Shown here in pieces: positions 2,905-58,244 of a stretch of DNA of 64,000 nt. The first letter of the stretch is position 1. The number at the start of each line of letters is the position of its first letter. The stretch comes from Cherax quadricarinatus (Eukaryota > Arthropoda > Malacostraca > Decapoda > Parastacidae), in NCBI RefSeq assembly GCF_038502225.1, contig NC_091293.1, positions 16,971,552-17,035,551 on the forward strand, in the 5' to 3' direction. The position numbers and the translations under genes were made by a program. A model generated the notes under the pieces. That model did no database searches. It was not told where the DNA came from and worked only from the letters and a program-made list of their open reading frames with translations.

Positions 2905-2914
2905 CGATGACCCT

Positions 2915-4812
2915 TAACCTGCACTCTCTTGAAAACTGAGAGCCGTCAACCTGCACTCTCTTCAAGACTAACTGAGAGCCCTCAACCTGCACTCTCTTCA
3001 AGACTAACTGAGAGCCCTCAACCTGCACTCTCTCCAAGACTAACTGAGAGCCCTCAACCTGCACTCTCTTCAAGACTAACTGAGAGCCCTCAACCTGCAC
3101 TCTCTTCAAGACTAACTGAGAACCCTCAACCTGCACTCTCTTCAAGACTAACTGAGAGCCCTCAACCTGCACTCTCTTCAAGATTAACTGAGAACCCTCA
3201 ACCTGCACTCTCTTCAAGATTAACTGAGAGCCCTCAACCTGCACTCTCTTCAAGACTAACTGAGAGCCCTCAACCTGCACTCTCTTCAAGACTAACTGAG
3301 AACCCTTAACCTGCACTCTCTTCAAGACTAACTGAGAGCCCTCAACCTGCACTCTCTTCAAGACTAACTGAGAGCCCTCAACCTGCACTCTCTTCAAGAC
3401 TAACTGAGAGCCCTCAACCTGCACTCTCTTCAAGACTAACTGAGAACCCTCAACCTGCACTCTCTTCAAGACTAACTGAGAACCCTTAACCTGCACTCTC
3501 TTCAAGACTAACTGAGAGCCCTCAACCTGCACTCTCTTCAAGACTAACTGAGAACCCTTAACCTGCACTCTCTTCAAGACTAACTGAGAGCCCTCAACCT
3601 GCACTCTCTTCAAGACTAACTGAGAGCCCTCAACCTGCACTCTCTTCAAGACTAACTGAGAGCCCTCAACCTGCACTCTCTTCAAGACTAACTGAGAACC
3701 CTTAACCTGCACTCTCTTCAAGACTAACTGAGAGCCCTCAACCTGCACTCTCTTCAAGACTAACTGAGAACCCTTAACCTGCACTCTCTTCAAGACTAAC
3801 TGAGAGCCCTCAACCTGCACTCTCTTCAAGACTAACTGAGAACCCTTAACCTGCACTCTCTTCAAGACTAACTGAGAGCCCTCAACCTGCACTCTCTTCA
3901 AGACTAACTGAGAGCCCTCAACCTGCACTCTCTTCAAGACTAACTGAGAACCCTCAACCTGCACTCTCTTCAAGAGTAACTGAGGGCCCTCAACCTGCAC
4001 TCTCTTCAAGATTAACTGAGAACCCTCAACCTGCACTCTCTTCAAGACTAACTGAGGGCCCTCAACCTGCACTCTCTTCAAGACTAACTGAGGGCCCTCA
4101 ACCTGCACTTTCTTCAAGACTAACTGAGAGCCCTCAACCTGCACTCTCTTCAAGACTAACTGAGAACCCTCAACCTGCACTCTCTTCAAGACTAACTGAG
4201 GGCCCTCAACCTGCACTCTCTTCAAGACTAACTGAGAACCCTCAACCTGCACTCTCTTCAAGACTAACTGAGGGCCCTCAACCTGCACTCTCTCCAAGAC
4301 TAACTGAGAGCCCTCAACCTGCACTCTCTTCAAAACTAAGGGCCCTCAACCTGCACTCTCTTCAAGACTAAGGGCCCTCAACCTGCACTCTCTTCAAGAC
4401 TAACTGAGGGCCCTCAACCTGCACTCTCTTCAAGACTAACTGAGGGCCCTCAACCTGCACTCTCTTCAAGACTAACTGAGAGCCCTCAACCTGCACTCTC
4501 TTCAAGACTAACTGAGAACCCTCAACCTGCACTCTCTTCAAGACTAACTGAGGGCCCTCAACCTGCACTCTCTTCAAGACTAACTGAGAACCCTCAACCT
4601 GCACTCTCTTCAAGACTAACTGAGGGCCCTCAACCTGCACTCTCTCCAAGACTAACTGAGAGCCCTCAACCTGCACTCTCTTCAAAACTAAGGGCCCTCA
4701 ACCTGCACTCTCTTCAAGACTAAGGGCCCTCAACCTGCACTCTCTTCAAGACTAACTGAGGGCCCTCAACCTGCACTCTCTTCAAGACTAACTGAGGGCC
4801 CTCAACCTACAC
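2915..4812. repeat. 36-bp minisatellite (first)
   Basis: About 52 tandem copies of a 36-bp unit built on CAACCTGCACTCTCTTCAAG. Because 36 is divisible by three, a minus-strand frame of 480 codons stays open with a 12-residue repeat (KRVQVEGSQLVL). It has no start context, no non-repeat domain and many synonymous-free length variants elsewhere, so I treat it as non-coding. Two pairs of 32-bp units that lack CTGA (near 4331 and 4683) mark a 352-bp block of ten units duplicated in tandem. Confidence 0.95.
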
Positions 4813-5090
4813 TCTTGAAGACTGAATGATTTCAACCTGAACTCTTGTATGATCGAGGTACACAGATGGAAGACTGGTTTAAGTTTGGGTTTACTTGAAG
4901 TTTTCTTCTTTTTTTTTGGGGGGGGGGGGGGTCAACGCCTCCCCGCCGGTCCGTAAACCCAGACTTACCTTAAGAAATATTTCTAAACTGAGTATTCAAG
5001 TTGGATAAATCCAGATTCAGAAAATATAGACGAAAGTACTGGAGTGGAACAATGTGCCAGGCAGGCTGCACTGGACACAACAGAAGAATT
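4813..5090. other. Spacer with poly-G tract and possible LINE remnants
   Basis: Contains a T-run followed by about 14 G (4911-4932). The next 30 bases resemble the GGGGTCAACGCC block at the LINE-A 3' end, in antisense. Bases 5000-5045 weakly resemble the LINE-C segment that encodes KLDKFRFRKDIGKYW. Both resemblances are partial. Confidence 0.4.
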
Positions 5091-8000
5091 GAGATGGAAG
5101 GCAGTACCTGACACAACACCAGAACTATGATGGAAGGCAGTACCTGGCACAACACTAGAACTATGATGGTAGGCAGTACCTGGCACAACACCAGAACTAT
5201 GATGATAGGCAGTACCTGGCACAACACCAGAACTATGATGGTAGGCAGTACCTGACAACACCAGAACTATGATGGTAGGCAGTACCTGACCCAACACCAG
5301 AACTATGATGGAAGGCAGTGCCTGGCACACCAGAACCATGATGGTAGGCAGTACCTGACAACACCAAAACTATGATGGTAGGCAGTACCTGGCACAACAC
5401 CAAAACTATGATGGTAGGCAGTGCCTGGCACACCAGAACCATGATGGTAGGCAGTACCTGACAACACCAAAACTATGATGGTAGGCAGTACCTGGCACAA
5501 CACCAGAACTATGATGGAAGGCAGTACCTGACAACACCAGAACTATGATGGAAGGCAGTACCTGGCACAACATCAGAACTAAGATGGTAGGCAGTACCTG
5601 GCACAACACCAGAACTATGATGGAAGGCAGTACCTGACAACACCAAAACTATGATGGTAGGCAGTACCTGGCCCAACATCAGAACTAAGACGGTAGGCAG
5701 TACCTGGCACAACACCAGAACTATGATGGAAGGCAGTACCTGGCACAACATCAGAACTAAGATGGTAGGCAGTACCTGGCACAACACCAGAACTATGATG
5801 GAAGGCAGTACCTGACAACACCAAAACTATGATGGTAGGCAGTACCTGGCCCAACATCAGAACTATGATGGAAGGCAGTACCTGGCCCAACATCAGAACT
5901 AAGATGGTAGGCAGTACCTGGCCCAACACCAGAACTATGATGGAAGGCAGTACCTGACAACACCAGAACTATGATGGAAGACAGTACCTGGCACAACACA
6001 GAACTATGATGGAAGGCAGTACCTGGCACAACACCAGAACTATGATGGAAGGCAGTACCTGGCACAACACCAGAACTATGATGGAAGACAGTACCTGGCA
6101 CAACACCAGAACTATGATGGAAGGCAGTACCTGGCACAACACCAGAACTATGATGGAAGACAGTACCTGGCACAACACAGAACTATGATGGAAGGCAGTA
6201 CCTGGCACAACACCAGAACTATGATGGAAGGCAGTACCTGACACAACACCAGAACTATGATGGAAGGCAGTACCTGGCACAACACCAGAACTATGATGGA
6301 AGACAGTACCTGGCACAACACCAGAACTATGATGGAAGACAGTACCTGGCACAACACCAGAACTATGATGGAAGGCAGTACCTGGCACAACACAGAACTA
6401 TGATGGAAGACAGTACCTGGCACAACACAGAACTATGATGGAAGACAGTACCTGGCACAACACCAGAACTATGATGGAAGGCAGTACCTGGCACAACACC
6501 AGAACTATGATGGAAGGCAGTACCTGGCACAACACCAGAACTATGATGGAAGGCAATACCTGGCACAACACCAGAACTATGATAGAAGGTAGTACCTGGC
6601 ACAACACCAGAAGTATGATGGAAGGCAGTACCTGGCACAACACCAGAACTATGATGGAAAGCAGTACCTGGCACAACACCAGAACTATGATGGAAGGCAA
6701 TACCTGGCACAACACAGAACTATGATGGAAGGCAGTACCTGGCACAACACCAGAACTATGATGGAAGGCAGTACCTGGCACAACACCAGAACTATGATGG
6801 AAGGCAGTACCTGGCACAACACCAGAACTATGATGGAAGGCAGTACCTGGCACAACACCAGAACTATGATGGAAGGCAGTACCTGGCACAACACCAGAAC
6901 TATGATGGAAGACAGTACCTGGCACAACACCAGAACTATGATGGAAGGCAGTACCTGGCACAACACCAGAACTATGATGGAAGGCAGTACCTGGCACAAC
7001 ACCAGAACTATGATGGAAGGCAGTACCTGGCACAACACCAGAACTATGATGATAGGCAGCACCTGGCACAATACCAGAACTATGATGGAAGTACCTGACA
7101 ACACCAGAACTATGAAGATGGGCAGTACCTGGCACAACACTAGAACTATGATGGAAGGCAGTACCTGGCACAACACCAGAACTATGATGGAAGGCAGTAC
7201 CTGGCACAACACAGAACTATGATGGAAGGCAGTACCTGGCATAACACCAGAACTATGGTGGAAGGCAGTACCTGACACAACACCAGAACTATGATGATGG
7301 GCAGTACCTGACACAACACCAGAACTATGATGGAAGGCAGTACCTGGCACAACACCAGAACTATGATGGAAGGCAGTACCTGGCACAACACCAGAACTAT
7401 GATGATAGGCAGCACCTGGCACAACACCAGAAGTATGATGGAAGGCAGTACCTGGCACAACACCAGAAGTATGATGGAAGGCAGTACCTGGCACAACACC
7501 AGAACTATGATGGAAAGCAGTACCTGGCACAACACCAGAACTATGATGGAAGGCAATACCTGGCACAACACAGAACTATGATGGAAGGCAGTACCTGGCA
7601 CAACACCAGAACTATGATGGAAGGCAGTACCTGGCACAACACCAGAACTATGATGGAAGGCAGTACCTGGCACAACACCAGAACTATGATGGAAGGCAGT
7701 ACCTGGCACAACACCAGAACTATGATGGAAGGCAGTACCTGGCACAACACCAGAACTATGATGGAAGGCAGTACCTGGCACAACACCAGAACTATGATGG
7801 AAGGCAGTACCTGGCACAACACCAGAACTATGATGGAAGGCAGTACCTGGCACAACACCAGAACTATGATGGAAGACAGTACCTGGCACAACACCAGAAC
7901 TATGATGGAAGGCAGTACCTGGCACAACACCAGAACTATGATGGAAGGCAGTACCTGGCACAACACCAGAACTATGATGGAAGGCAGTACCTGGCACAAC

Positions 8001-11000
8001 ACCAGAACTATGATGATAGGCAGCACCTGGCACAATACCAGAACTATGATGGAAGTACCTGACAACACCAGAACTATGAAGATGGGCAGTACCTGGCACA
8101 ACACTAGAACTATGATGGAAGGCAGTACCTGGCACAACACCAGAACTATGATGGAAGGCAGTACCTGGCACAACACAGAACTATGATGGAAGGCAGTACC
8201 TGGCACAACACCAGAACTATGATGGAAGGCAGTACCTGACACAACACCAGAACTATGATGGAAGGCAGTACCTGGCACAACACCAGAACTATGATGGAAG
8301 GCAGTACCTGACACAACACCAGAACTATGATGGAAGGCAGTACCTGGCACAACACCAGAACTATGATGGAAGACAGTACCTGGCACAACACCAGAACTAT
8401 GATGGAAGACAGTACCTGGCACAACACCAGAACTATGATGGAAGGCAGTACCTGGCACAACACAGAACTATGATGGAAGACAGTACCTGGCACAACACAG
8501 AACTATGATGGAAGACAGTACCTGGCACAACACCAGAACTATGATGGAAGGCAGTACCTGGCACAACACCAGAACTATGATGGAAGGCAGTACCTGGCAC
8601 AACACCAGAACTATGATGGAAGGCAATACCTGGCACAACACCAGAACTATGATGGAAGGTAGTACCTGGCACAACACCAGAAGTATGATGGAAGGCAGTA
8701 CCTGGCACAACACCAGAACTATGATGGAAAGCAGTACCTGGCACAACACCAGAACTATGATGGAAGGCAATACCTGGCACAACACAGAACTATGATGGAA
8801 GGCAGTACCTGGCACAACACCAGAACTATGATGGAAGGCAGTACCTGGCACAACACCAGAACTATGATGGAAGGCAGTACCTGGCACAACACCAGAACTA
8901 TGATGGAAGGCAGTACCTGGCACAACACCAGAACTATGATGGAAGGCAGTACCTGGCACAACACCAGAACTATGATGGAAGACAGTACCTGGCACAACAC
9001 CAGAACTATGATGGAAGGCAGTACCTGGCACAACACCAGAACTATGATGGAAGGCAGTACCTGGCACAACACCAGAACTATGATGGAAGGCAGTACCTGG
9101 CACAACACCAGAACTATGATGATAGGCAGCACCTGGCACAATACCAGAACTATGATGGAAGTACCTGACAACACCAGAACTATGAAGATGGGCAGTACCT
9201 GGCACAACACTAGAACTATGATGGAAGGCAGTACCTGGCACAACACCAGAACTATGATGGAAGGCAGTACCTGGCACAACACAGAACTATGATGGAAGGC
9301 AGTACCTGGCATAACACCAGAACTATGGTGGAACGCAGTACCTGACACAACACCAGAACTATGATGATGGGCAGTACCTGACACAACACCAGAACTATGA
9401 TGGAAGGCAGTACCTGGCACAACACCAGAACTATGATGGAAGGCAGTACCTGGCACAACACCAGAACTATGATGATAGGCAGCACCTGGCACAACACCAG
9501 AAGTATGATGGAAGGCAGTACCTGGCACAACACCAGAAGTATGATGGAAGGCAGTACCTGGCACAACACCAGAACTATGATGGAAAGCAGTACCTGGCAC
9601 AACACCAGAACTATGATGGAAGGCAATACCTGGCACAACACAGAACTATGATGGAAGGCAGTACCTGGCACAACACCAGAACTATGATGGAAGGCAGTAC
9701 CTGGCACAACACCAGAACTATGATGGAAGGCAGTACCTGGCACAACACCAGAACTATGATGGAAGGCAGTACCTGGCACAACACCAGAACTATGATGGAA
9801 GGCAGTACCTGGCACAACACCAGAACTATGATGGAAGGCAGTACCTGGCACAACACCAGAACTATGATGGAAGGCAGTACCTGGCACAACACCAGAACTA
9901 TGATGGAAGGCAGTACCTGGCACAACACCAGAACTATGATGGAAGACAGTACCTGGCACAACACCAGAACTATGATGGAAGGCAGTACCTGGCACAACAC
10001 CAGAACTATGATGGAAGGCAGTACCTGGCACAACACCAGAACTATGATGGAAGGCAGTACCTGGCACAACACCAGAACTATGATGATAGGCAGCACCTGG
10101 CACAATACCAGAACTATGATGGAAGTACCTGACAACACCAGAACTATGAAGATGGGCAGTACCTGGCACAACACTAGAACTATGATGGAAGGCAGTACCT
10201 GGCACAACACCAGAACTATGATGGAAGGCAGTACCTGGCACAACACCAGAACTATGATGGAATGCAGTACCTGGCACAACACCAGAACTGTGATGGAAGG
10301 CAGTACCTGGCACAACACCAGAACTATGATGGAAGGCAGTACCTGGCATAACACCAGAACTATGATGGAAGGCAGTACCTGGCACAACACCAGAACTATG
10401 ATGGAAGGCAGTACCTGGCACAACACCAGAACTATGATGGAAGGCAGTACCTGGCATAACACCAGAACTGTGATGGAAGGCAGTACCTGACACAACACCA
10501 GAACTATGATGGAAGGCAGTACCTGGCACAACACCAGAACTATGATGGAAGGCAGTACCTGGCACAACACCAGAACTATGATGGAAGGCAGTACCTGGCA
10601 TAACACCAGAACTATGATGGAAGGCAGTACCTGACACAACACCAGAACTATGATGGAAGGCAGTACCTGGCACAACACCAGAACCATGATGGAAGGCAGT
10701 ACCTGGCACAACACCAGAACTATGATGGAAGGCAGTACCATGCACAACACAGAACTATGATGGAAGGCAGTACCTGGCACAACACCAGAACTATGATGGA
10801 AGGCAGTACCTGGCATAACACCAGAACTATGATGGAAGGCAGTACCTGGCACAACACCAGAACTATGATGGAAGGCAGTACCTGGCACAACACCAGAACT
10901 ATGATGGAAGGCAGTACCTGGCACAACACCAGAACTATGATGGAAGGCAGTACCTGGCACAACACCAGAACTATGATGGAAGGCAGTACCTGGCACAACA

Positions 11001-11633
11001 CCAGAACTATGATGGAAGGCAGTACCTGGCACAACACCAGAACTATGATGGAAGGCAGTACCTGGCACAACACCAGAACTATGATGGAAGGCAGTACCTG
11101 GCACAACACCAGAACTATGATGGAAGGCAGTACCTGGCACAACACCAGAACTATGATGGAAGGCAGTACCTGGCACAACACCAGAACTATGATGGAAGGC
11201 AGTACCTGGCACAACACCAGAACTATGATGGAAGGCAGTACCTGGCACAACACCAGAACTATGATGGAAGGCAGTACCTGGCACAACACCAGAACTATGA
11301 TGGAAGGCAGTACCTGGCACAACACCAGAACTATGATGGAAGGCAGTACCTGGCACAACACCAGAACTATGATGGAAGGCAGTACCTGGCACAACACCAG
11401 AACTATGATGGAAGGCAGTACCTGGCACAACACCAGAACTATGATGGAAGGCAGTACCTGGCACAACACCAGAACTATGATGGAAGGCAGTACCTGGCAC
11501 AACACCAGAACTATGATGGAAGGCAGTACCTGGCACAACACCAGAACTATGATGGAAGGCAGTACCTGGCACAACACCAGAACTATGATGGAAGGCAGTA
11601 CCTGGCACAACACCAGAACTATGATGGAAAAAA
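5091..11633. repeat. 36-bp minisatellite (second), about 180 copies
   Basis: About 180 copies of a 36-bp unit (core GGCAGTACCTGGCACAACAC, then CAGAACTATGATGGAA), unrelated to the preceding 36-bp array. The left part (5091-6000) is diverged. The middle (about 6250-10270) consists of two nearly identical 2070-bp blocks. The right part (10757-11630) is about 24 almost perfect units. Open frames on both strands (up to 665 codons on minus, 348 on plus) simply follow the 36-bp period and are interrupted wherever a unit loses two bases (CACAACACAG forms). Not a gene. Confidence 0.97.
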
Positions 11634-12572: not shown

Positions 12573-12654
12573 GTCGTCTGCAAATGACAGATTCAAATGA
12601 AGCTGAACATCGAAAAGTGGCAGTAAGAAGCCACGAGTGTTGAGCCTTGTGTAC
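12573..12654. other. Short spacer
   Basis: Unique 80-bp stretch between two minisatellites. No feature seen. Confidence 0.4.
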
Positions 12655-13898
12655 CAGGTGGAAAGTGTTGTAGTCCTGGTGGAAAGTGTTCTTGTCCAGG
12701 TAGAAAGTGTTGTTGTCCAGGAGGAAAGTGTTGTTGTCCAGGTAGAAAGTGTTGTTGTCCAGGTAGAAAGTGTTGTTGTCCAGGTAGAAAGTGATGTTGT
12801 CCAGGTAGAAAGTGATGTTGTCCAGGAGGAAAGTGTTGTTGTCCAGGTAGAAAGTGATGTTGTCCAGGTAGAAAGTGATGTTGTCCAGGAGGAAAGTGTT
12901 GTTGTCCAGGTAGAAAGTGATGTTGTCCAGGTAGAAAGTGTTGTTGTCCAGGAGGAAAGTGTTGTTGTCCAGGTAGAAAGTGATGTTGTCCAGGTAGAAA
13001 GTGTTGTTGTCCAGGTAGAAAGTGATGTTGTCCAGGTAGAAAGTGTTGTTGTCCATGTAGAAAGTGATGTAGTCCAGGTAGAAAGTGTTGTAGTCCAGGT
13101 AGAAAGTGTTGTAGTCCAGGTAGAAAGTGTTGTAGTCCAGGTAGAAAGTGTTGTAGTCCAGGTAGAAAGTGTTGTTGTCCAGGTAGAAAGTGTTGTTGTC
13201 CAGGTAGAAAGTGTTGTAGTCCAGGTAGAAAGTGTTGTAGTCCAGGTAGAAAGTGTTGTAGTCCAGGTAGAAAGTGTTGTTGTCCAGGTAGAAAGTGATG
13301 TTGTCCAGGTAGAAAGTGATGTTGTCCAGGTAGAAAGTGTTGTTGTCCAGGTAGAAAGTGTTGTTGTCCAGGTAGAAAGTGTTGTAGTCCAGGTAGAAAG
13401 TGTTGTTGTCCAGGTAGAAAGTGTTGTTGTCCAGGTAGAAAGTGTTGTTGTCCAGGTAGAAAGTGTTGTTGTCCAGGTAGAAAGTGTTGTCCAGGTAGAA
13501 AGTGTTGTAGTCTAGGTAGAAAGTGTTGTTGTCCAGGTAGAAAGTGTTGTAGTCCTGGTAGAAAGTGTTGTTGTCCAGGTAGAAAGTGTTGTTGTCCAGG
13601 TAGAAAGTGTTGTTGTCCAGGTAGAAAGTGTTGTAGTCCAGGTAGAAAGTGTTGTAGTCCAGGTAGAAAGTGTTGTTGTCCAGGTAGAAAGTGTTGTAGT
13701 CCTGGTAGAAAGTGTTGTTGTCCAGGTAGAAAGTGTTGTAGTCCAGGTAGAAAGTGTTGTAGTCCAGGTAGAAAGTGTTGTTGTCCAGGTAGAAAGTGTT
13801 GTAGTCCAGGTAGAAAGTGTTGTAGTCCAGGTAGAAAGTGTTGTAGTCCTGGTAGAAAGTGTTGTAGTCCAGGTAGAAAGTGTTATATTCCGGGTAGA
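12655..13898. repeat. 21-bp minisatellite (first)
   Basis: About 59 copies of a 21-bp unit CAGGTAGAAAGTGTTGTTGTC, with GTAGTC and GTGATG variants in runs. Seven codons per unit keep a 292-codon plus-strand frame open (QVESVVV repeated). I do not regard this as a gene. Confidence 0.95.
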
Positions 13899-13947
13899 AA
13901 GGGTTTATATCACGTAAGTGTTTTTATACGTCACGCAGTAGCTGTTA

Positions 13948-15034: not shown

Positions 15035-16215
15035 GTAGGAGCCGCTACATACTATGTATGTGTTATGTATCACATAGGAGCCGCTGCATATTATGTATGC
15101 GTTATGTATCACGTAGGAGCCGCTACATACTATGTATGTGTTATGTATCACGTAGGAGCCGCTACATATTATGTATGTGTTATGTATCACGTAGGAGCCG
15201 CTACATATTATGTATGTGTTATGTATCACGTAGGAGCCGCTACATACTATGTGTTATGTATCACGTAAGAGTCGCTACATACTATGTATGTGTTATGTAT
15301 CACGTAGGAGCCGCTACATATTATGTATGTGTTATGTATCACGTAGGAGCCGCTACATATTATGTATGTGTTATGTATCACGTAGGAACCGCTACATATT
15401 ATGTATGTGTTATGTATCACGTAGGAGCCGCTACATACTATGGATGTGTTATGTATCACGTAGGAGCCGCTACATATTATGTATGTGTTATGTATCACGT
15501 AGGAGCCGCTACATATTATGTATGTGTTATGTATCACGTAGGAGCCGCTACATATTATGTATGTGTTATGTATCACGTAGGAGCCGCTACATACTATGGA
15601 TGTGTTATGTATCACGTAGGAGCAGCTACATATTATGTATGTGTTATGTATCACGTAGGAGCCGCTACATATTATGTATGTGTTATGTATCACGTAGGAG
15701 CCGCTACATACTATGTGTTATGTATCACGTAAGAGTCGCTACATACTATGTATGTGTTATGTATCACGTAGGAGCCGCTACATATTATGTATGTGTTATG
15801 TATCACGTAGGAGCCGCTACATATTATGTATGTGTTATGTATCACGTAGGAGCTGCTACATACTATGTATGTGTTATGTATCACGTAGGAGCTGCTACAT
15901 ATTATGTATTTGTTATGTATCACGTAGGAGCCGCTACATATTATGTATGTGTTATGTATCACGTAGGAGCCGCTACATACTATGTATGTGTTATGTATCA
16001 CGTAGGAGCCGCTGCATATTATGTATGTGTTATGTATCACGTAGGAGCCGCTGCATATTATGTATGTGTTATGTATCACGTAGGAGCCGCTACATATTAT
16101 ATGTGTTATGTATCACGTAGGAGCCGCTACATACTATGTATGTGTTATGTATCACGTAGGAGCCGCTACATACTGTATAAGACGTATTATATAACACGTA
16201 GGAGCCGCTCATAGC
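15035..16215. repeat. 39-bp minisatellite, right segment
   Basis: About 30 copies of the same 39-bp unit as at 13948-14296, more homogeneous. A shortened unit (TACATACTATGTGTTATG) recurs near 15240 and 15705, indicating duplication of blocks of about 465 bp. Frames of up to 321 codons are repeat artefacts (13 residues per unit). Confidence 0.95.
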
Positions 16216-16263
16216 ACGTAGGTGCTATATATCACGTACAGGTTATATATCACATAAACATTG

Positions 16264-19404: not shown

Positions 19405-20395
19405 TTGTGCAATAAAGATGTAGAACTTTGGGCAGGTATCAGAAAGGTACTAAGGAGAGTAATAAATGATAAAAACAATCAAGAAAACAAGGAAGACCTC
19501 TTGGATAGTCTACCAAAAATATATAAAACATGGGAGCAAGAGATAGTGTATAAAAAAATGCAGAATGCCCATACCACAACAGATGACTTGAAACTATCTA
19601 GTCACCCACATAGTGCTAAGCCAGACCCATCCCCCAGTCATAGCACTAATACCCACAGTGCTGGTGCTGGCCCAGGCTCCCCCAGTCATAGCACTAATAC
19701 CCACAGTGCTGGTGCTGGCCCTGGCCCAGCCGCTGGCCCAGGCTCAGCCCCCAGCCCCAGTGCTGACTCAGACCCAGCCCCTAGCCTTACTGCCAGCCCA
19801 GACTCTACTAAGGACCCTACCATAACCACCACTAAAACCGTAAATATACAACCATCATTGCACAAGACCGTGGCCCACAGTACAGATGTTAGAGAGGAGT
19901 CTCCTCCTTCTTCTGTTGGGGAAAATAGATGGAATCCAGGACAGGGTGGCCCTGGCTTGGATACTGAGGATTAGAGTGCAGTCCCAGAACCTGCAGAAAT
20001 TGACAACACACCTCCCAACAATTCTCAACCAAAGGTGAATTTGTGTAAATATTATGCTTGGGGTATCTGTAAGCATGGAATATCAGGAAAAAAAAAATGG
20101 GACTTGCAACTTTGAGCATCCCCAAAAATGTAGCGACCTCCTGTCTAAAGGAGTGTGTCGTTATTCTTCCTGTACTTTCTTTCACCCAAAAATGTGTCAC
20201 TCCTCAGTCCTCCAGAAGCAGTGTTACAACATCGACTGCCCTGCATACCATCTAAAAGGGACCAGGAGGCACAGACCCCACAAGACAAGCAATAGCAGCT
20301 ACGACAACCCAACTCCAGGTGATTTTTTAGTGGCAGGAAACGGAAAAAGAAAATGGAAGGAAATAATAAAAATATTCCACCACCTTGGAGCCTTG
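19405..20395 (+). pseudogene. LINE-A ORF1, CCCH zinc-finger protein (broken)
   Basis: 5'-truncated ORF1 (nucleic-acid-binding chaperone of a non-LTR element). The N-terminal part (19405-19974) is a proline/serine/alanine-rich low-complexity region with tandem SPSHSTNTHSAGAGP repeats, ended by a stop at 19972. The frame continues past this stop into three CCCH-type fingers: C-x7-C-xn-C-x3-H (about 20040-20115), then two of C-x8-C-x4-C-x3-H (about 20128-20190 and 20200-20260). A run of eight A at 20090 causes a frameshift between the first finger and the others. The ORF runs into the hammerhead array at 20396 and its continuation is at 23338. Such fingers in ORF1 would bind the element RNA (inference). 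Confidence 0.75.
20381..20395. repeat. 15-bp target-site duplication, left copy
   Basis: CACCTTGGAGCCTTG, repeated exactly at 23338-23352 on the far side of the HH-A array. Confidence 0.92.
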
Positions 20396-20434
20396 AAGAT
20401 TGAGACACTTATGCAGCATATGGGAATCTTTATT

Positions 20435-20468
20435 CAGGAAACGTTTCGCCACACAGTGGCTTCATCAG
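20435..20468 (-). ncRNA. HH-A hammerhead motif 1
   Basis: Reads on the minus strand CTGATGA, A, stem II GCCAC/GTGGC around a TGT triloop, GAAAC, then GTTTCC. The first complete motif of the left arm. Confidence 0.7.
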
Positions 20469-20812
20469 TCCAATACAAAGAGGAAGGCGTAAGGAGAGGA
20501 GGAGTATGAGGTAATCAGTCCCTCAGCCTGGAGTCGATGTGTTCAGTCCATCAATCTTGTAGAATGTACAGCATAGGGCCGTAGACGTGGCTTATATACT
20601 GTAGTGAGGTGACTTGAAGCAGATGGAGGCGGGATCATAGTGGTACCATCCACTAGTCGAAGTAGGTCTTTGTCCAAAGGTTGAACAAGCGTTGAAGAAT
20701 TCTTTGTAAGAAGATCCCATGATGCTGCAGTGTCTGACAGTTGTGATGAATGGTTTGAAAAACCGACAAGTTGAAGATTGAGACACTTATGCAGCATATG
20801 GGAATCTTTATT

Positions 20813-20846
20813 CAGGAAACGTTTCGCCACACAGTGGCTTCATCAG
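20813..20846 (-). ncRNA. HH-A hammerhead motif 2
   Basis: Identical to motif 1, 378 bp further on. Confidence 0.7.
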
Positions 20847-21189
20847 TCCAATACAAAGAGGAAGGCGTAAGGAGAGGAGGAGTATGAGGTAATCAGTCCC
20901 TCAGCCTGGAGTCGATGTGTTCAGTCCATCAATCTTGTAGAATGTACAGCATAGGGCCGTAGACGTGGCTTATATACTGTAGTGAGGTGACTTGAAGCAG
21001 ATGGAGGCGGGATCATAGTGGTACCATCCACTAGTCGAAGTAGGTCTTTGTCCAAAGGTTGAACAAGCGTTGAAGAATTCTTTGTAAAAGATCCCATGAT
21101 GCTGCAGTGTCTGACAGTTGTGATGAATGGTTTGAAAAACCGACAAGTTGAAGATTGAGACACTTATGCAGCATATGGGAATCTTTATT

Positions 21190-21223
21190 CAGGAAACGTT
21201 TCGCCACACAGTGGCTTCATCAG
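21190..21223 (-). ncRNA. HH-A hammerhead motif 3
   Basis: Identical core, 377 bp after motif 2. Confidence 0.7.
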
Positions 21224-21567
21224 TCCAATACAAAGAGGAAGGCGTAAGGAGAGGAGGAGTATGAGGTAATCAGTCCCTCAGCCTGGAGTCGATGTGTTCA
21301 GTCCATCAATCTTGTAGAATGTACAGCATAGGGCCGTAGACGTGGCTTATATACTGTAGTGAGGTGACTTGAAGCAGATGGAGGCGGGATCATAGTGGTA
21401 CCATCCACTAGTCGAAGTAGGTCTTTGTCCAAAGGTTGAACAAGCGTTGAAGAATTCTTTGTAAGAAGATCCCATGATGCTGCAGTGTCTGACAGTTGTG
21501 ATGAATGGTTTGAAAAACCGACAAGTTGAAGATTGAGACACTTATGCAGCATATGGGAATCTTTATT

Positions 21568-21601
21568 CAGGAAACGTTTCGCCACACAGTGGCTTCATCA
21601 G
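21568..21601 (-). ncRNA. HH-A hammerhead motif 4
   Basis: Identical core, 378 bp after motif 3. Confidence 0.7.
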
Positions 21602-21944
21602 TCCAATACAAAGAGGAAGGCGTAAGGAGAGGAGGAGTATGAGGTAATCAGTCCCTCAGCCTGGAGTCGATGTGTTCAGTCCATCAATCTTGTAGAATGT
21701 ACAGCATAGGGCCGTAGACGTGGCTTATATACTGTAGTGAGGTGACTTGAAGCAGATGGAGGCGGGATCATAGTGGTACCATCCACTAGTCGAAGTAGGT
21801 CTTTGTCCAAAGGTTGAACAAGCGTTGAAGAATTCTTTGTAAAAGATCCCATGATGCTGCAGTGTCTGACAGTTGTGATGAATGGTTTGAAAAACCGACA
21901 AGTTGAAGATTGAGACACTTATGCAGCATATGGGAATCTTTATT

Positions 21945-21978
21945 CAGGAAACGTTTCGCCACACAGTGGCTTCATCAG
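21945..21978 (-). ncRNA. HH-A hammerhead motif 5
   Basis: Identical core, 377 bp after motif 4. Confidence 0.7.
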
Positions 21979-22322
21979 TCCAATACAAAGAGGAAGGCGT
22001 AAGGAGAGGAGGAGTATGAGGTAATCAGTCCCTCAGCCTGGAGTCGATGTGTTCAGTCCACCAATCTTGTAGAATGTACAGCATAGGGCCGTAGACGTGG
22101 CTTATATACTGTAGTGAGGTGACTTGAAGCAGATGGAGGCGGGATCATAGTGGTACCATCCACTAGTCGAAGTAGGTCTTTGTCCAAAGGTTGAACAAGC
22201 GTTGAAGAATTCTTTGTAAGAAGATCCCATGATGCTGCAGTGTCTGACAGTTGTGATGAATGGTTTGAAAAACCGACAAGTTGAAGATTGAGACACTTAT
22301 GCAGCATATGGGAATCTTTATT

Positions 22323-22356
22323 CAGGAAACGTTTCGCCACACAGTGGCTTCATCAG
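22323..22356 (-). ncRNA. HH-A hammerhead motif 6
   Basis: Last minus-strand motif before the inversion point at about 22376. Its upstream leader is cut short there, leaving only about 20 bp of stem I side. Confidence 0.65.
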
Positions 22357-22478
22357 TCCAATACAAAGAGGAAGGCTGTACATTCTACAAGATTGATGGA
22401 CTGAACACATCGACTCCAGGCTGAGGGACTGATTACCTCATACTCCTCCTCTCCTTACGCCTTCCTCTTTGTATTGGA

Positions 22479-22512
22479 CTGATGAAGCCACTGTGTGGCG
22501 AAACGTTTCCTG
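22479..22512 (+). ncRNA. HH-A hammerhead motif 7
   Basis: First plus-strand motif after the inversion. Stem I is formed by GGA before CTGATGA and TCC after the predicted cleavage site, with a further TAT/ATA pairing beyond a small internal loop. Confidence 0.72.
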
Positions 22513-22726
22513 AATAAAGATTCCCATATGCTGCATAAGTGTCTCAATCTTCAACTTGTCGGTTTTTCAAACCATTCATCACAACTGTCAGACACTGCAG
22601 CATCATGGGATCTTCTTACAAAGAATTCTTCAACGCTTGTTCAACCTTTGGACAAAGACCTACTTCGACTAGTGGATGGTACCACTATGATCCCGCCTCC
22701 ATCTGCTTCAAGTCACCTCACTACAG

Positions 22727-22734
22727 TATATAAG
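22727..22734 (+). promoter_or_regulatory. TATA box of an HH-A unit
   Basis: TATATAAG, 130 bp upstream of the ribozyme at 22857. The same box recurs at 23105-23112 and, inverted, in every left-arm unit (for example 20591-20598). HH-B units have TATATAAG in the equivalent place. Confidence 0.55.
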
Positions 22735-22856
22735 CCACGTCTACGGCCCTATGCTGTACATTCTACAAGATTGATGGACTGAACACATCAACTCCAGGCT
22801 GAGGGACTGATTACCTCATACTCCTCCTCTCCTTACGCCTTCCTCTTTGTATTGGA

Positions 22857-22890
22857 CTGATGAAGCCACTGTGTGGCGAAACGTTTCCTG
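22857..22890 (+). ncRNA. HH-A hammerhead motif 8
   Basis: Identical to motif 7, 378 bp downstream. Confidence 0.72.
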
Positions 22891-23104
22891 AATAAAGATT
22901 CCCATATGCTGCATAAGTGTCTCAATCTTCAACTTGTCGGTTTTTCAAACCATTCATCACAACTGTCAGACACTGCAGCATCATGGGATCTTCTTACAAA
23001 GAATTCTTCAACGCTTGTTCAACCTTTGGACAAAGACCTACTTCGACTAGTGGATGGTACCACTATGATCCCGCCTCCATCTGCTTCAAGTCACCTCACT
23101 ACAG

Positions 23105-23112
23105 TATATAAG
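23105..23112 (+). promoter_or_regulatory. TATA box of an HH-A unit
   Basis: TATATAAG, 130 bp upstream of motif 9. Confidence 0.55.
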
Positions 23113-23234
23113 CCACGTCTACGGCCCTATGCTGTACATTCTACAAGATTGATGGACTGAACACATCGACTCCAGGCTGAGGGACTGATTACCTCATACT
23201 CCTCCTCTCCTTACGCCTTCCTCTTTGTATTGGA

Positions 23235-23268
23235 CTGATGAAGCCACTGTGTGGCGAAACGTTTCCTG
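23235..23268 (+). ncRNA. HH-A hammerhead motif 9
   Basis: Last motif of the array. AATAAAGATTCCC follows immediately and the element ends 69 bp later at the target duplication. Confidence 0.72.
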
Positions 23269-23337
23269 AATAAAGATTCCCATATGCTGCATAAGTGTCT
23301 CAATCTTCAACTTGTCGGTTTTTCAAACCATTCATCA

Positions 23338-26174
23338 CACCTTGGAGCCTTGTTGGACTGGAGGCGCAGCCAGTGGCCACCCATGGCCCTCCAGAATTAC
23401 AACTACTGATGCCAATAACAAAATCCCCCCAACAAACACAGAATACAACCTCGTTCATATTTGCTAATATACAGGGCCTTAAGCCATCCACCAACAACAA
23501 AATACCTTCTATCAGTGGACTTCTAGAGGAGTCTAATGCAATGTTTGCAGCCTTCACAGAGACTCACATAAAAGATCACTTTGATAGTGAAATATGGATA
23601 AGTGGTTACAACCTTTTTAGATGTGACAGAAAGAACAGGCAACAAGGGGGGGTTGGCCTGTATGTCAAAGAGTCCCTCATCTGCACGGAGTTGCTGAACA
23701 CCACAAATGAGGTAGTTGAATTTCTATCAATAAAGATCGAGAACCAAAACCTGGTCATTGTGGTTGTATATAAGCCACCAGATGCAACCTCACAACAGTT
23801 CAAGGAACAGCTACTGAAAATTGATTACTGTTTGGAAAACCTTCCAGCTCCATCCCCAAACATCTTACTGCTTGGTGATTTCAACCTAAGACATACAAAA
23901 TGGAAGAATGTAGCAAATAATGTTATAGCTGAAACAATCCCCGGAGGTAGCGCAGATGAAAGGTCACACACACATGAGCTACTAAGTCTCTGCGAAAAAC
24001 ACACCTTAAGCCAGCAGATAGTGGAGCCAACAAGACTAGAAAACACACTTGACCTTATCTTCACAAATAATGAGGACCTGATAAGAGACATAAGAATATC
24101 AAAAACAACAAATTCCGATCACAACCTAATCGAAGTCCAGATGTACATGCATAGGGGTCCTGATCAGCAGAATGCATGTACCTGTGAAGGTGTCTTCACA
24201 AAATACAACTTCAACAACAAGAACATCAACTGGGACCAGGTAAACCATGTCCTAAACGAAACATGTTGGGAGGATGTCTTAAATGACATGGATCCAAACC
24301 AGTGCCTTGAAAGGATCAACTTCCTGGCAGCCGAAGCATGTTCTAGGCATATTCTCCTAAGAAAGAAGAAGAGCAGGAGTAAACTGGAGAGAGAAAGACG
24401 CTCCCTCTACAGAAGACGACGAAGAGTCACTGAGCTCCTCAGGAGTGCTAGAATATCTGATACATGAAAGGAGGCGCTGACCAGGGAAGTGGAAACTATC
24501 GTACTTAAGTTAAATGACTCTTACAGGAACCAGGAGAGACAGGAGGAGCTTAAAGCTGTTAGTAAAATTGAAAGAAATTCAAAATATTTCTTTTCATATG
24601 CCAAAAACAAGGCAAATACCACATCTAGTATTGGGCCCTTACTCAGACAGGATGGGACTTACACAGATGACAACAAGGAAATGAGTGAAATATTGAAATC
24701 CTAGTACGACTCTGTGTTTAGTGAACCACTAATCGGTCTGAGGATCGATGACCCAAATGATTTCTTCATGAATGAGCCTCAAAACTCCATAAATGTATGC
24801 CAAAATACCGACATTACCCTAACTCCGATAGATTTCGAAAAAGCCAATGCACTCAGCCCCGGGCCCAGACTCGTGGAACTCTGTTTTCATTAAGAACTGC
24901 AAGAAACCCCTCTCGCATGCCATAAGTATACTGTGGAGGAGGAGCTTGGACATGGGTGAAATTCCACAGTCACTTAAAACAACGGATATAGCCCCACTCC
25001 ATAAAGGTGGCAGCAAAGCATTAGCTAAGAACTATAGACCAATAGCTCTGACGTCCCACATCATAAAAATCTTTGAAAGAGTGCTAAGAAGCAGGATTGC
25101 AAATCACCTGGATTCCCAAAATCTGCACAATCCAGGGCAACATGGGTTCAGGGCAGGTCGCTCCTGCCTCTCACAACTACTGGATCACTATGATATGGCC
25201 TTGGATGCACTGGAAGAAAATCAGAATGCAGATGTAATATACACAGACTTTGCAAAAGCATTTGACAAATGCAATCATGGTGTAATAGCCCATAAAATAC
25301 GCGCTAAAGGAATAACTGGGAAAGTGGGGAGATGGATCTTCAACTTTCTAACAAATCGAACACAAAGAGTAGTGGTCAACAGAGTTAAATCGGAGGCTGC
25401 CATAGTGAAGAGCTCTGTTCCACAAGGCACAATACTCGCCCCCATCTTATTCCTTATCCTCATATCAGACATAGACAGAGATATACATCACAGCACCGTA
25501 TCATCCTTTGCTGATGATAATAGGATCTGCATGAGGCTGTCATCTGCTGAGGACGTGGTTAACCTCCAGGAAGGTATAAACAAAGTTTTCCAGTGGGCAA
25601 CGGTAAACAACATGATGTTCAATGAAGACAAAGTCCAACTACTCCGTTATGGAAAACTGGAGGAGATAATAACTAGAACAGAGTATACTACAGACTCTGG
25701 CCATACAATAGAGCAGAAAAATAATGTAAGGGACCTGGGAGTAGTAATGTCTGAGGATCTCACTTTCAAGGATCACAACAGTGCCATGATCGCACGTGCA
25801 AAGAAAATGATAGGATGGATAATGAGAACTTTCAAAACGAGAGATGCCAAGCCAATGATGATCCTTTTCAAATCACTTGTTCTCTCTAGGCTGGAATACT
25901 GCTGTACATTAACATCTCCATTCAAAGCAGGTGAAATCGCAGATCTAGAGAGTGTACAGAGATCCTTTACTGCATGTATAAGTTCTGTCAAGCACCTTAA
26001 CTACTGGGAACGCTTGGAAGCACTTGATTTGTACTCGTTGGAACGCAGGAGGGAGAGATATTTCATAATCTACACTTGGAAAATCTTGGAAGGAATGGTC
26101 CCAAATCTGCACACAGAAATCACTCCCTATGGAAGTAAAAGACTGGGCAGGCGATGCAAAATGCCCCCAATAAA
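23338..26174 (+). pseudogene. LINE-A ORF2, endonuclease and reverse transcriptase (broken)
   Basis: Non-LTR retrotransposon ORF2. The APE-type endonuclease is at about 23440-24170, with FTETHI (catalytic glutamate), LLGDFNLRHTKW and NSDHN (catalytic Asp-His). A linker rich in Arg/Lys ends in a stop at 24465. The frame continues with a TAG at 24702 and a frameshift near 24845. The reverse transcriptase is at 24847-25700, with NYRPIALTS, YTDFAKAFDK (first catalytic Asp), SVPQGTILAP and SFADDNR (catalytic Asp pair). The thumb and C-terminal YSLERRRERY and GSKRLGRRC region run to 26174. LINE-B sequence then replaces the rest of the ORF and 3' end. At least two stops and one frameshift make it inactive. 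The right copy of the 15-bp target duplication is 23338-23352. Confidence 0.88.
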
Positions 26175-31282: not shown

Positions 31283-31487
31283 CATCTCCATATTGTTTCA
31301 GACTATGGAACAATACTCTTCTCCAGACTGAGGGACTGACCATCTCAAAACTTCAAGGGTGATGGACTGATTACATCATCTTCAAGTCTCTTCTGCTTCT
31401 ATCAACTTTTCTGTACTTGACTGAAGAAGCCTACTGTGTAGGCGAAACATTTCGAAATAAAGATACCTAACTGTTGCATATGTGTCT
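31283..31487 (+). mobile_element. Solo HH-B copy, 5'-diverged
   Basis: Matches the 3' half of an HH-B unit, from CATATTGTTTCAGAC through CCAGACTGAGGGACTGACC, the hammerhead motif and CTAACTGTTGCATATGTGTC. The part upstream of 31283, including the TATA box, is not recognisable. No clear target duplication. Confidence 0.8.
31421..31453 (+). ncRNA. HH-B hammerhead motif, variant
   Basis: CTGAAGA core with intact stem II GCCTAC/GTAGGC. ACGT of stem III is changed to ACAT, which breaks its self-complementarity, so activity is doubtful. Confidence 0.5.
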
Positions 31488-31937
31488 TACCTTGTTTCAG
31501 CTTGCTCAGGGTGGTACTTCTCCACAAACATTTGGACATCATTCCACTTGGACATCATTCCACTTCTGTATTATTTCCTTCTTCACATCTATGGTGTTTC
31601 TCACTTTCTTTACCACTGGGGTACCACTAGCAAGTATCATTGCTCCCATTGTAGTTTATTTCACAGTCCCACAAGCACTAAACACAATGAAATTATCGTA
31701 AAATGTTTGAATGAGATCGCAGGCTAGTGTTCACTCAAACATCAACAAAACCAGACTGGCTCACGGCACTTGTGTGGGGACACACATGGATGTAGTGGGC
31801 TGCCAGACAGGTCCGGTACCCGGCGGTTCGAAAATATGGGCGAGTTTGATAATAGGGACAAAGTTGGTTTGGAAAAAGGGTTCTATTTTCGAAGAGTTCG
31901 ATAAGCGATACGTTCGAAATTTAAGGTTCCACTGTAC
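31488..31937. other. Unassigned sequence with a possible DNA-transposon end
   Basis: No recognisable gene. Bases 31825-31937 contain short TTCGAA/TTCGATA repeats and end in GGTTCCACTGTA next to a TA. In reverse complement this resembles the CAGTGGAACC-type ends of pogo/Tigger-like transposons, but I see no matching second end. Confidence 0.3.
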
Positions 31938-33042: not shown

Positions 33043-33110
33043 GATGAATGGTTTGAAAAACCGACTAGTTGAAGATTGAGACACTTATGCAACATATGGG
33101 AATCTTTATT

Positions 33111-33144
33111 CAGGAAACGTTTCGCCACACAGTGGCTTCATCAG
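33111..33144 (-). ncRNA. HH-A hammerhead motif, left arm of inverted pair
   Basis: Core and stem II identical to the array motifs. Confidence 0.68.
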
Positions 33145-33344
33145 TCCAATACAAAGTAGAAAGGCATAAGGAGAGGAGGAGTTTGAGGTAATCAGTCCCT
33201 CAGCCTGGAGTCAATGTGCTCAGTCCATCAATCTTGTAGAATGTACATTCTACAAGATTGATGGACTGAACACATCGACTCCAGGCTGAAGGACTGATTA
33301 CCTCAAACTCCTCCTCTCCTTATGCCTTTCTACTTTGTATTGGA

Positions 33345-33378
33345 CTGATGAAGCCACTGTGTGGCGAAACGTTTCCTG
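33345..33378 (+). ncRNA. HH-A hammerhead motif, right arm of inverted pair
   Basis: Identical core. The GTATTGGA leader that forms the 5' side of stem I is preserved. Confidence 0.7.
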
Positions 33379-33451
33379 AATAAAGATTCCCATATGTTGC
33401 ATAAGTGTCAATCTTCAACCGTTAGAGGTAGAGGGTACAGAGTCAGGAGGA

Positions 33452-40235: not shown

Positions 40236-41188
40236 AGAACTATGCAGCATAATCTAAATGAGGCCTAACCAGTGATACATAGAGTTGAAGAATAACTTGT
40301 GGACTTCTTTTAGTTATACTATTTGATGTGAAGCCAAGAATTCTGTTCGCTTTTTTTTTTAATACTTACGCGCTGTTGTCTGGGTTTCACATTACTACCA
40401 ACCAGAACTCCCAAATCTTTCTCACACTCAGAGACATTAAGATCTACATTGTAGATAAATGGTTCAGAGAACTAACAAGTTGATAAATTAGACACATGTG
40501 CAACACCTGGGTATCTTTATTGAGGAAACGTTTTGCCACACAGTGGCTTCATCATTCCATACAAAGGAGAATGGTGAAGAACAGGAGAAGTTTGAGGTAA
40601 CCAGTCCCTCAGCCTTGAGTTAGATACAGCAACTTCTTGGGCTCTTAATACTGGGAATTCTTCACTTGCCTAACCTTCAGGCATGACCTACTTCCACATT
40701 TGACTAATGTGATACCATCTTTGACTGCTGCACCTCACCTGCCTACAGCATATAAGCCACTTCTTCGTACACATGCTGTATTCTTTCAAGATTGACTGAT
40801 CACATCGACTCAAGGCTGAGGGACTGATTACCTCAAACTTCTCATATTCTTCACCATTCTCTTTTGTATGGACTGATAAAGCCACTGTGTGGCGAAACAT
40901 TTCCTCAGTAAAGGTACCCAAGTGTTGCACATGTGTCTAATTTATCAAGATCTACATTATTTAGATTATAAGTTTCATGGTTATTTACCTATCCAATGCT
41001 TAGAACTTTGCAGTTCTCTATGTTAAACTGGCTCTGCCACTGCACCAGTATATTCAGACCTTCCTGGAGCACTCTTGCATCCTCGTCAGAATGAATTCAA
41101 CGCCCTATTTTGGCGTCATCAGCAAACTTGCTTATATCGCTATGATTACCCTCATCTACATCATTTATGTAAATTGTGAACAACAAGG
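40236..41188 (-). pseudogene. Antisense LINE-C, 3' part of a split copy
   Basis: In reverse complement it reads the LINE-C RT C-terminal half: the LLFTIYINDVDEGN and FADDAKIG catalytic segment near 41100-41185, then the WQMQFN and KVLSIG region, and VRPHLDYAA near 40240. It is interrupted at 40451-40946 by an HH-A-like element. Its upstream part lies at 46784-48850, displaced by the sense LINE-C insertion at 41189-46783. Confidence 0.82.
40451..40946. mobile_element. Old HH-A-like inverted-pair insertion
   Basis: A 496-bp element with inverted HH-A-like arms (40451-40620 minus, 40785-40946 plus). An internal segment contains a CATATAAGCC TATA-like sequence at about 40748. It is flanked by the exact 12-bp duplication AAGATCTACATT (40439-40450 and 40947-40958). 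Both ribozyme cores are mutated: the left arm has lost the first C of CTGATGA and has AAAAC for GAAAC, and the right arm has CTGATAA. Confidence 0.8.
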
Positions 41189-45211: not shown

Positions 45212-45250
45212 AGGTAAGGCACATATGCAACAGTTATGTATCTTTATTTC

Positions 45251-45283
45251 GAAACGTTTCGCCTACACAGTAGGCTTCTTCAG
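45251..45283 (-). ncRNA. HH-B hammerhead motif, left end
   Basis: CTGAAGA core, stem II GCCTAC/GTAGGC with TGT loop, GAAAC. Stem I is a full TCGA/TCGA four-pair helix in this copy. Confidence 0.7.
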
Positions 45284-46634
45284 TCGAGTACAGAAAAGTT
45301 GATAGAAGCAGAAGATACTTGAAGACGATGTAATCAGTCAAGTATCTTCTGCTTTGTTACAAAAAACGCAATTCTAAAAGCTTAGAAATCTCCAGTGAAT
45401 ACTAGAAAGAACTGCCCTTCTAGCATCCAGCCTGTTACTGGGTTTTCGTAACAAGTAGTCAGTATCCTTGTCCAATTATCCATTAGAATTCAGTATGAAT
45501 TAATAGTGCTTCAGGATTACAACTGGTAGGCTACTAACTAGAGCAATTAAAATTTAATAAATTTGTTAATCATTAAGTTGTCTAGGCGTATATCAAATTA
45601 AATTAAATTATTCACAGTAATTAAAATAATATCACTTCTCTCAAGTACAATATTATTGTGCTGAAAGCACATATCACATTTATAATTCTTAAGTACTGTC
45701 TGGTACATTAACATTTAATAAGATATTACAAATATGTACAAGTAATTTTGTGTATGTGTGTAAGTGCTCTAAGTAGTTCGCTATGTCTCAAGACTCGACT
45801 AGACTTAAACAAGTGACTGACAAAGTCCTCAAATAAACTAACTTCTTGGCCAACTGGCAATCAGAACAGTCTGCTTGAACAATAAAAAGAATGCTAAGCC
45901 CAATAGCAATACAACAAGCAACTGCGACACAGAATCAGGAACAAGGAGATAATATAATGACGCTAAGTAGGGACCATCAGCAGATCCTCCACAAAAGTCA
46001 CAAAACTCCCATACTACTGAATCTAAGTTCAGCATAAGAAAATCCCCGACTGTGATAATACACAGATACCAGTACAAATTAGGTCAGAAGCTACAGCTCA
46101 AGACCCCGAGTTGATTAGAGTGTCTATGCGACACACAACCTCAGTACAACGTCGAAAATCACTAAGTCTATACAATGTTCTGTGAGCAGAGTTCTACAGA
46201 ACTAACAAGAATAATGAGACAGATAATCTGTCCAACCACCAAGCGAGTCTAGACCAGACTGAATACTTCAGGCGAGGTGAGGACACCCCCCCCCCTCGAT
46301 CACGTGATAGCTCCGTGGGTTGCTGCCCAGCAACAACGAGAAGCCGGCAGTCTAACGAGCCACAAGCGATAATTACAGTAGTTAGACAATCAAGACTTGA
46401 ACTGAGCACATAATATGTTACATCCTACCTCACAAAATTTAGCTAAGTCAAATAATAATAATATAAAGCAATATATTTACGATTTAGCTATTATCGCAAA
46501 TATAAGCAATATAAAATTATATGAAAAGGTGATAATTATATATATACATTATATTCATAATCATAATATACATTATATATATTGCAACCCATTCAGGGGT
46601 TGCAACATGCTTCTATCAACTTTTCTGTACTCGA

Positions 46635-46667
46635 CTGAAGAAGCCTACTGTGTAGGCGAAACGTTTC
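46635..46667 (+). ncRNA. HH-B hammerhead motif, right end
   Basis: Same as the left-end motif, with the full four-pair stem I. AAATAAAGATACC follows. Confidence 0.72.
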
Positions 46668-46740
46668 GAAATAAAGATACCTAACTGTTGCATATGTGTC
46701 TTACCTAACAACCTGTCGGTATTTTATACCATTTTAATGT

Positions 46741-54694: not shown

Positions 54695-54813
54695 TCTGTT
54701 GACTTACACTTATCATCTGTTGACTTCACACTTATCATCTGTTGACTTTACACTTATCATCTGTTGACTATACACTTATCATCTGTTGACTACACACTTA
54801 TCATCTGTTGACT
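54693..54813. repeat. 20-24 bp tandem repeat at a LINE-C 5' junction
   Basis: Six imperfect copies of ATCATCTGTTGACT plus a short spacer (TACACTT, CACACTT). The seed CACTTATCTGTTGACTGGGG is present once in the related LINE-C copy at 60016. The repeat sits exactly at the 5' end of the truncated copy C9. Confidence 0.88.
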
Positions 54814-58199: not shown

Positions 58200-58244
58200 A
58201 AAATAAAGATACCTAACTGTTGCATATGTGTCTTACCTAACAAC

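Follow-up and report, generated by a model that had tools for sequence, protein, structure and literature searches.

We analysed a 64,000-nucleotide stretch of the genome of Cherax quadricarinatus (contig NC_091293.1, positions 16,971,552 to 17,035,551; hereafter the window) and found that a block of tandem 378-bp units at window positions 20396-23337 is exactly one insertion, bordered on both sides by 15-bp target-site duplications and built as two arrays arranged head to head. The block is, in our judgement, probably a single insertion of a non-coding retroelement, likely mobilised by a Penelope-like element through reverse transcription primed on both target strands, with a hammerhead ribozyme predicted in each unit.

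Structure of the insertion

The two copies of the target duplication (CACCTTGGAGCCTTG; 20381-20395 on the left and 23338-23352 on the right, neither assigned a strand) are identical over 15 bp and score 15, compared with a maximum of 8 in 60 controls in which partners were exchanged. Between them, a minus-strand arm (20396-22376; 5.3 units whose lengths alternate between 378 and 377 bp) carries six hammerhead-like cores (20440-20468, 20818-20846, 21195-21223, 21573-21601, 21950-21978 and 22328-22356), and is followed by a plus-strand arm (22375-23337; 2.6 units of 378 bp) with three cores (22479-22507, 22857-22885 and 23235-23263). Tandem Repeats Finder describes the insert as 5.3 and 2.6 units of 378 bp with 99% matches. 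An earlier description made from the letters alone, which we call the sequence-only reading, had delimited the block to the base and recognised its tandem 378-bp units, but had missed their head-to-head orientation, six minus and three plus.

Measured from the C of CTGATGA, the outer end of the minus-strand arm is a short end, at 73 nt and without a tail, and that of the plus-strand arm is a long end, at 103 nt, with a tail in which a hairpin is predicted (GGTTTTTCAAACC, 23317-23329, plus strand, unit 83-95). A TATA-like box (TATATAAG) lies at 22727-22734 on the plus strand and starts at unit 249. The inner 5' ends of the arms differ, falling at unit 359 and, in the plus-strand arm, at unit 275. 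No stop-free frame of at least 150 amino acids lies wholly within the insert, which therefore lacks the open reading frame for reverse transcriptase (RT) and GIY-YIG by which a Penelope-like element would be recognised. A reading frame recognised by eye as resembling a long interspersed nuclear element (LINE) comes after the insert.

The hammerhead-like motif

The pattern CTGATGA-N(5-20)-GAAACGT occurs 11 times in the window, compared with a mean of 0.01 over 100 shuffles; nine matches lie within the insert and two at 33117-33144 and 33345-33372. The parts listed in the sequence-only reading (CTGATGA, an extra A, stem II as GCCAC-TGT-GTGGC, GAAAC, GTT and the GGA/TCC flanks) are all found in the window's units, and the outer TAT/ATA pairing that it proposed is predicted to be longer, as a 7-bp outer helix in the minimum-energy fold. 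The core is that of a hammerhead, with CUGANGA, GAAA and NUH placed between stems I and II, and has a U3-A8 pair in three families. GAAAC is followed directly by GUH, so that helix III has no loop to close it and a monomer is unlikely to cleave well.

We compared nine representatives of five families at six variable pairs, using 20,000 shuffles. Standard pairs occupy 53 of the 54 cells (shuffle mean 34.2), and all 30 of 30 when each family contributes one representative (shuffle mean 19.0); the latter figure uses the better-pairing member of the 400-bp family, the other member having one non-pair, which is counted in the nine-row figure. No shuffle among the 20,000 reached either 53/54 or 30/30, and because shuffling ignores relatedness these figures are not strict probabilities. 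The changes among standard pairs include C3-G8 to U3-A8, and the fit is weaker at pairs 2.4-1.4 (seven of nine representatives) and 15.2-16.2 (eight of nine). The extra A before stem II, noted in the sequence-only reading, is present in all nine, and the cleavage position is T, C or A in them, never G. Published work, cited here and below from the available portions of each text, describes hammerhead cores with U3-A8 as natural and active in vitro (PMC3088659), and Penelope-like elements as carrying minimal hammerheads without helix III (PMC6155905).

A descriptor scan, whose counts include overlapping loci and which served for the list of variants only, found the same layout in other families, with stem I as GGA/TCC, TCGA/TCGG, TGAC/GTCA, GGC/GCC or TGTA/TACA, stem II as GCCAC/GTGGC, GCCTAC/GTAGGC, GCCCAC/GTGGGC, GCTC/GAGC or GCCA/TGGC, and the core pair as C3-G8 or U3-A8. 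In family D the two-helix hammerhead fold has the lowest energy of any structure, and in family E it ties for the lowest; it lies 0.8 kcal/mol above the minimum in family A and 1.7 kcal/mol above it in the 400-bp family. When two strands are folded together they prefer other duplexes, so the idea of a dimer rests on the conserved ACGU and not on energy. The between-family comparison supports the view that the window motif is hammerhead-like in its behaviour. Every full 378-bp unit holds a minimal hammerhead motif for which self-cleavage is predicted; by analogy, the cut in the first plus-strand core would fall after GTT, at 22507/22508.

Other structured RNAs were considered for this DNA. A match to MIR8742 was rejected (51 bits, compared with a gathering score of 130), since the pairing of its arms comes from the palindromic head-to-head junction, and matches to a group II intron and small nucleolar RNAs had E values above 5 and were taken as chance. 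At three sampled loci (L035:2791, L039:2832 and L045:1355) we observed a repeated motif, TTCC-TTGATAA (or TTGATGA)-T-GTGAGTAGTCAC-like hairpin-GAAA-GCGC-TTGGAA, which is hammerhead-like in its hairpin and GAAA but lacks a U at 16.1.

Genomic copies and the one-tail pattern

In the genome as searched (7334 contigs, 3.95 Gb in total), the 31-nt core common to families A and B has 46,664 exact occurrences (23,410 forward and 23,254 reverse), and its reversed control has no genome match. A 77-nt stretch specific to the window's own family occurs 3,610 + 3,503 times, and the core of family D 7,046 + 7,144 times. The exact cores and the target duplications bear out the proposal, made in the sequence-only reading, that this is a mobile family. 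Insertions were sampled from 100 core places listed, which all lie in the first 12.7 Mb of contig 1 and form 60 clusters in 57 regions. Among these 100 matches, neighbouring exact cores within 1.5 kb are oriented minus-plus 27 times, plus-plus 8 times, minus-minus 4 times and plus-minus once. An arm-profile scan of the sampled regions and the window gave 65 head-to-head groups, 62 of which have both outer arms; three with an incomplete outer arm were left out.

At a score of at least 9 (the best of 60 controls with partners exchanged between loci being 8), 47 of the 62 two-armed insertions have a target duplication. Their outer ends fall into two classes, short ends at 67-76 nt (about 73) and long ends at 101-109 nt (about 105), the latter carrying an extra tail of about 30 bases. 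Forty of the 47 have one short and one long end, one has two long ends and none has two short ends; with these windows, 40 of the 41 insertions that have both ends within them are discordant, which would occur by chance with a probability of 1.9e-11 if the ends were independent. The 40 comprise 15 insertions of family A, 16 of B, five of the 400-bp type (one only about 80% alike) and four of D, and 39 are independent, one locus (L061) holding two copies that share a duplication. The duplication measures 12-14 bp in 34 of the 40, and the tail motif GTCGNT is found at the long end only in 34, at neither end in six and at the short end in none. The insertions thus have the inverted pseudo-long-terminal-repeat (pseudo-LTR) arms, tail and target duplication of Penelope-like elements. 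The sole long-long case, at L010:1579-2823, consists of adjacent E-type and B insertions with a common flanking repeat of 16-19 bp. A scan of 34 single arms, for several of which the search matched neighbouring units, yielded a clear duplication in five, with a short end at L028, L016 and L047 and a long end at L017 and L041.

The short and long end sites lie on either side of a conserved hairpin (GGTTTTTCAAACC in family A, GGTTCTCTGAACC in B, GGTATTTTATACC in the 400-bp family and GGTAATTCTACC in D), in which pairing is kept across families while the sequence changes. A Penelope-like protein from an anole is reported to cleave and extend both target strands, its two adjacent start sites within the RNA delimiting the tail (PMC11167929, Frangieh et al. 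2024). A 31-bp tail has been described as optional at one inverted pseudo-LTR, with self-priming on an antisense template suggested (PMC3846280, Arkhipova et al. 2013). Our data make this optional tail nearly a rule and favour two primers.

Inner 5' ends and the RNA template

Inner 5' ends were analysed in 70 arms from 35 of the 47 insertions, the other 12 belonging to other families, being too diverged, or being the L061 duplicate. They fall at unit 268-298, just downstream of the TATA-like box, in 24 of the 70 arms (5.8 expected), and near the predicted ribozyme cut in six (4.3 expected). Because the ends cluster after the TATA-like box and not at the cut, many short insertions look as if copied from promoter-started, uncut RNA, and the cut site is unsupported as the usual end of the template.

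Within one array, units show 0-1.4 differing sites on average (4.2 in L068), compared with 2.2-13.8 for units of different arrays; units taken from the two opposing arms of an insertion show 0-3, and in L069 all five full units across both arms are identical. Rare variants common to the two arms of an insertion number 143, compared with a mean of 114.4 when arms are exchanged within families (0 of 1000 exchanges as high), in a test in which the overlap of hits at a junction caused a few wrong pairings. The near-identity of long arms fits copying of a circular or multi-unit RNA from one source. We considered one dimeric circular template for the whole window insert, suggested by the 378/377 alternation, but it fails because the plus-strand arm lacks the alternation; such a template may account for the minus-strand arm alone.

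A coding Penelope-like relative

On contig 1, two head-to-head Penelope-like coding copies (L070) lie between family D cores 3.9 kb apart. Their coding sequence matches RT above the Pfam cut-off and GIY-YIG just below it, and the insertion has the tail at its left end and stops before the tail at its right. The coding insertion (L071, L072) is embedded in a tandem repeat whose unit measures about 21 bp and was read except for two pieces of 839 and 459 bases, so its target duplication cannot be placed. Penelope-like coding fragments are present in eight more sampled loci (L018, L021, L022, L023, L034, L045, L046 and L068). An NCBIfam search gave distant RT matches only, and the top protein match of a Penelope-like frame in this genome is from Cherax quadricarinatus itself (94% identity over 79% of the query).

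Proposed mechanism and alternative readings

Transcription would start about 30 nt after the unit's TATA-like box. A Penelope-type protein with RT and GIY-YIG would make staggered cuts about 13 bp apart and use both target 3' ends as primers, copying from one presumably starting just before the tail hairpin and from the other just after it. The outer ends are asymmetric; that the two starts are coupled we infer from them. The two complementary DNAs (cDNAs) would then reach the 5' end of the RNA, or stop earlier, and be joined head to head; the insertions have this mirror-image shape. Long arms of near-identical units would be copies of multi-unit or circular RNA, and the hammerhead would trim multi-unit transcripts, probably as a dimer formed through the self-complementary ACGU of helix III. 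Tentatively, and with less confidence than we place in this reading of the window block, we suggest that Penelope-type retrotransposition is obligately two-sided: a dimeric enzyme would use paired, mutually exclusive starts flanking one RNA hairpin and leave exactly one tail per mirror-image insertion, with non-coding hammerhead arrays riding along.

Several observations weigh against a Penelope-mobilised, two-strand-primed element with a ribozyme in each unit. Fifteen of the 62 two-armed groups lack a target duplication at the threshold, and seven of the 47 insertions depart from the one-tail rule (five with one odd end, one with two and the long-long case), for which the short and long windows were chosen after inspection of the data. 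A single exact core is present in 33 of the 60 clusters, so that two arms are not visible for every copy, and among the sampled loci no coding element has the window's exact unit at its ends. The arms of the window insert, although close in sequence, were not copied from one RNA molecule, since column 137 alternates in the minus-strand arm and not in the plus-strand arm. The assay of the anole protein, as described in the available text, detected no strand difference in start site and no requirement for ribozyme cleavage (PMC11167929). The Rfam hammerhead models, the check that the sequence-only reading had named, gave no match at the gathering score, nor at E values up to 10 in 20350-23400, and inner 5' ends show no enrichment at the predicted cut.

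These last points bear most directly on the alternative that survives best, although we regard it as unlikely: that the hammerhead pattern is no working ribozyme and serves as a binding or start signal for a Penelope-like protein, or is a relic. The open helix III, the missing Rfam match, GUU or other triplets presumably without the usual loop contacts, and inner ends away from the cut site are what it would lead one to expect, and the anole protein inserts RNA with a dead hammerhead equally well, hammerhead cutting there requiring the protein (PMC11167929). A mere hairpin, however, would not need the covarying C3-G8/U3-A8 pair, nor a cleavage position that is never G in nine representatives; these are needs of cleavage. 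The hammerhead identity proposed in the sequence-only reading is supported by the comparison between families, but finds no echo in Rfam or in a closed helix III.

Less probable by some way is self-priming, in which the end of a cDNA folds back and primes a copy of the same strand, giving a mirror image, as bdelloid Penelope elements have been read. It was proposed from palindromes at inverted junctions (PMC3846280), and short palindromes occur near junctions here too, as in L054, where the apparent 5' ends are 22/22 at GAAACGTTTC. A fold-back copy would, however, repeat the first arm, and so leaves unexplained why 40 of 47 insertions stop at a defined site 30 nt earlier at one end; the inner 5' ends of the two arms also often differ, as at 359 and 275 in the window insert. 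We give marginally less credence still to a retrozyme without relation to Penelope-like elements, for which a LINE or some other enzyme would have copied circular RNA. LINE frames are abundant in the window, array units are nearly identical, and in its unit size, its tandem non-coding units and its target duplications the family agrees with metazoan non-LTR retrozymes (PMC7229834). Against this stand a hammerhead without helix III, unlike the canonical type I hammerheads of retrozymes, and Penelope-like outer ends, tail and inverted arms, which the coding Penelope-like insertion has in common. Ordinary satellite or local tandem duplication without retrotransposition is very improbable, for although a two-unit local duplication would be expected to give the 378/377 alternation of the minus-strand arm, it does not fit the tens of thousands of exact copies spread over the genome, the target duplications or the existence of two defined end sites.

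Other insertions and repeats in the window

The window holds three further head-to-head insertions with target duplications, each with a long left end and a short right end and with one mismatch between its duplications: an insertion of the window's own family with one arm each way (33043-33416; 13-bp duplication), one of sister family B (40451-40943; 15 bp) and one of the 400-bp family, in which the core reads CTGAAGA and stem II has 6 bp (56276-58240; 13-bp duplication). The last of these (56263-58253 in the window) splits a LINE-like RT frame at 54768-56276, whose coding continues at 58207-58803, and is therefore younger than that LINE copy. More arms, single or decayed and some with CTGATAA cores, lie at 31326-31491, 45213-45348, 46608-46705, 48946-49150 and 60180-60735. 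The first 17 kb consists largely of dense minisatellite arrays unrelated to the insert, at 99-2141, 2911-4815, 5071-11629, 12654-13905 and 15035-16238, with units of 14, 36, 36, 21 and 39 bp, respectively.

Significance and relation to known systems

The insertion route of Penelope-like elements is still debated, and head-to-head copies have so far been ascribed to self-priming. Natural copies number in the tens of thousands in this genome, and the one-tail rule of the sampled insertions points to coordinated priming on two strands. Placing non-coding hammerhead units on Penelope-type insertion ends provides a link that has been proposed for animal retrozymes, and the families offer a natural covariation set for hammerheads without helix III. 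If true, the two-sided reaction would bring retrozymes and Penelope-like elements together in a single system.

In L1 twin priming, two primers on opposite target strands also give an inverted insertion with target duplications, the second primer annealing inside the RNA; here, in contrast, both outer ends are 3' ends of the element, at two fixed sites. With elements of the Penelope/Poseidon type, as presented in the available portions of PMC11167929 and PMC3846280, the insertions have in common head-to-head pseudo-LTRs, target duplications, a TATA-like box, a tail of some 30 bp that lies between two start sites and, within the pseudo-LTR, a minimal hammerhead without helix III; the same genome also contains an insertion of this type with RT/GIY-YIG coding sequence. 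Unlike those elements, the window unit has no open reading frame, long non-coding arrays run both ways in one insertion, and the tail, optional in print, is present at one end and absent from the other in 40 of 47. Inverted pseudo-LTRs, an optional tail and hammerheads in Penelope elements have been described before. The near-strict one-tail rule and the mirror-image non-coding arrays look new; neither was found in the literature searched, mostly without subscription papers, and hammerheads go unmentioned in the available portions of a crayfish satellite paper (PMC13130569) and a decapod repeat paper (PMC10454600).

Metazoan non-LTR retrozymes (Cervera and de la Pena 2020, PMC7229834, in its available text) likewise consist of non-coding tandem units of 170-400 nt with a type I-like hammerhead, in thousands of copies with target duplications longer than 4 bp (15 bp here), but the present hammerhead lacks the helix III of a canonical type I and the insertions are inverted and two-armed. 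The satellite hammerhead repeats of newt and axolotl described there resemble ours in their tandem units of about 330-350 bp and in a weak helix III that needs dimers; theirs consists of one pair and a tetraloop, and here there is no loop at all. The sequence-only reading had named both retrozymes and Penelope-like pseudo-LTRs. The anatomy of the insertion, with its inverted arms, one-end tail and duplication, is Penelope-like, and the tandem non-coding units resemble retrozymes, so that the window element is best read as a non-autonomous, Penelope-mobilised relative of retrozymes with a minimal hammerhead.

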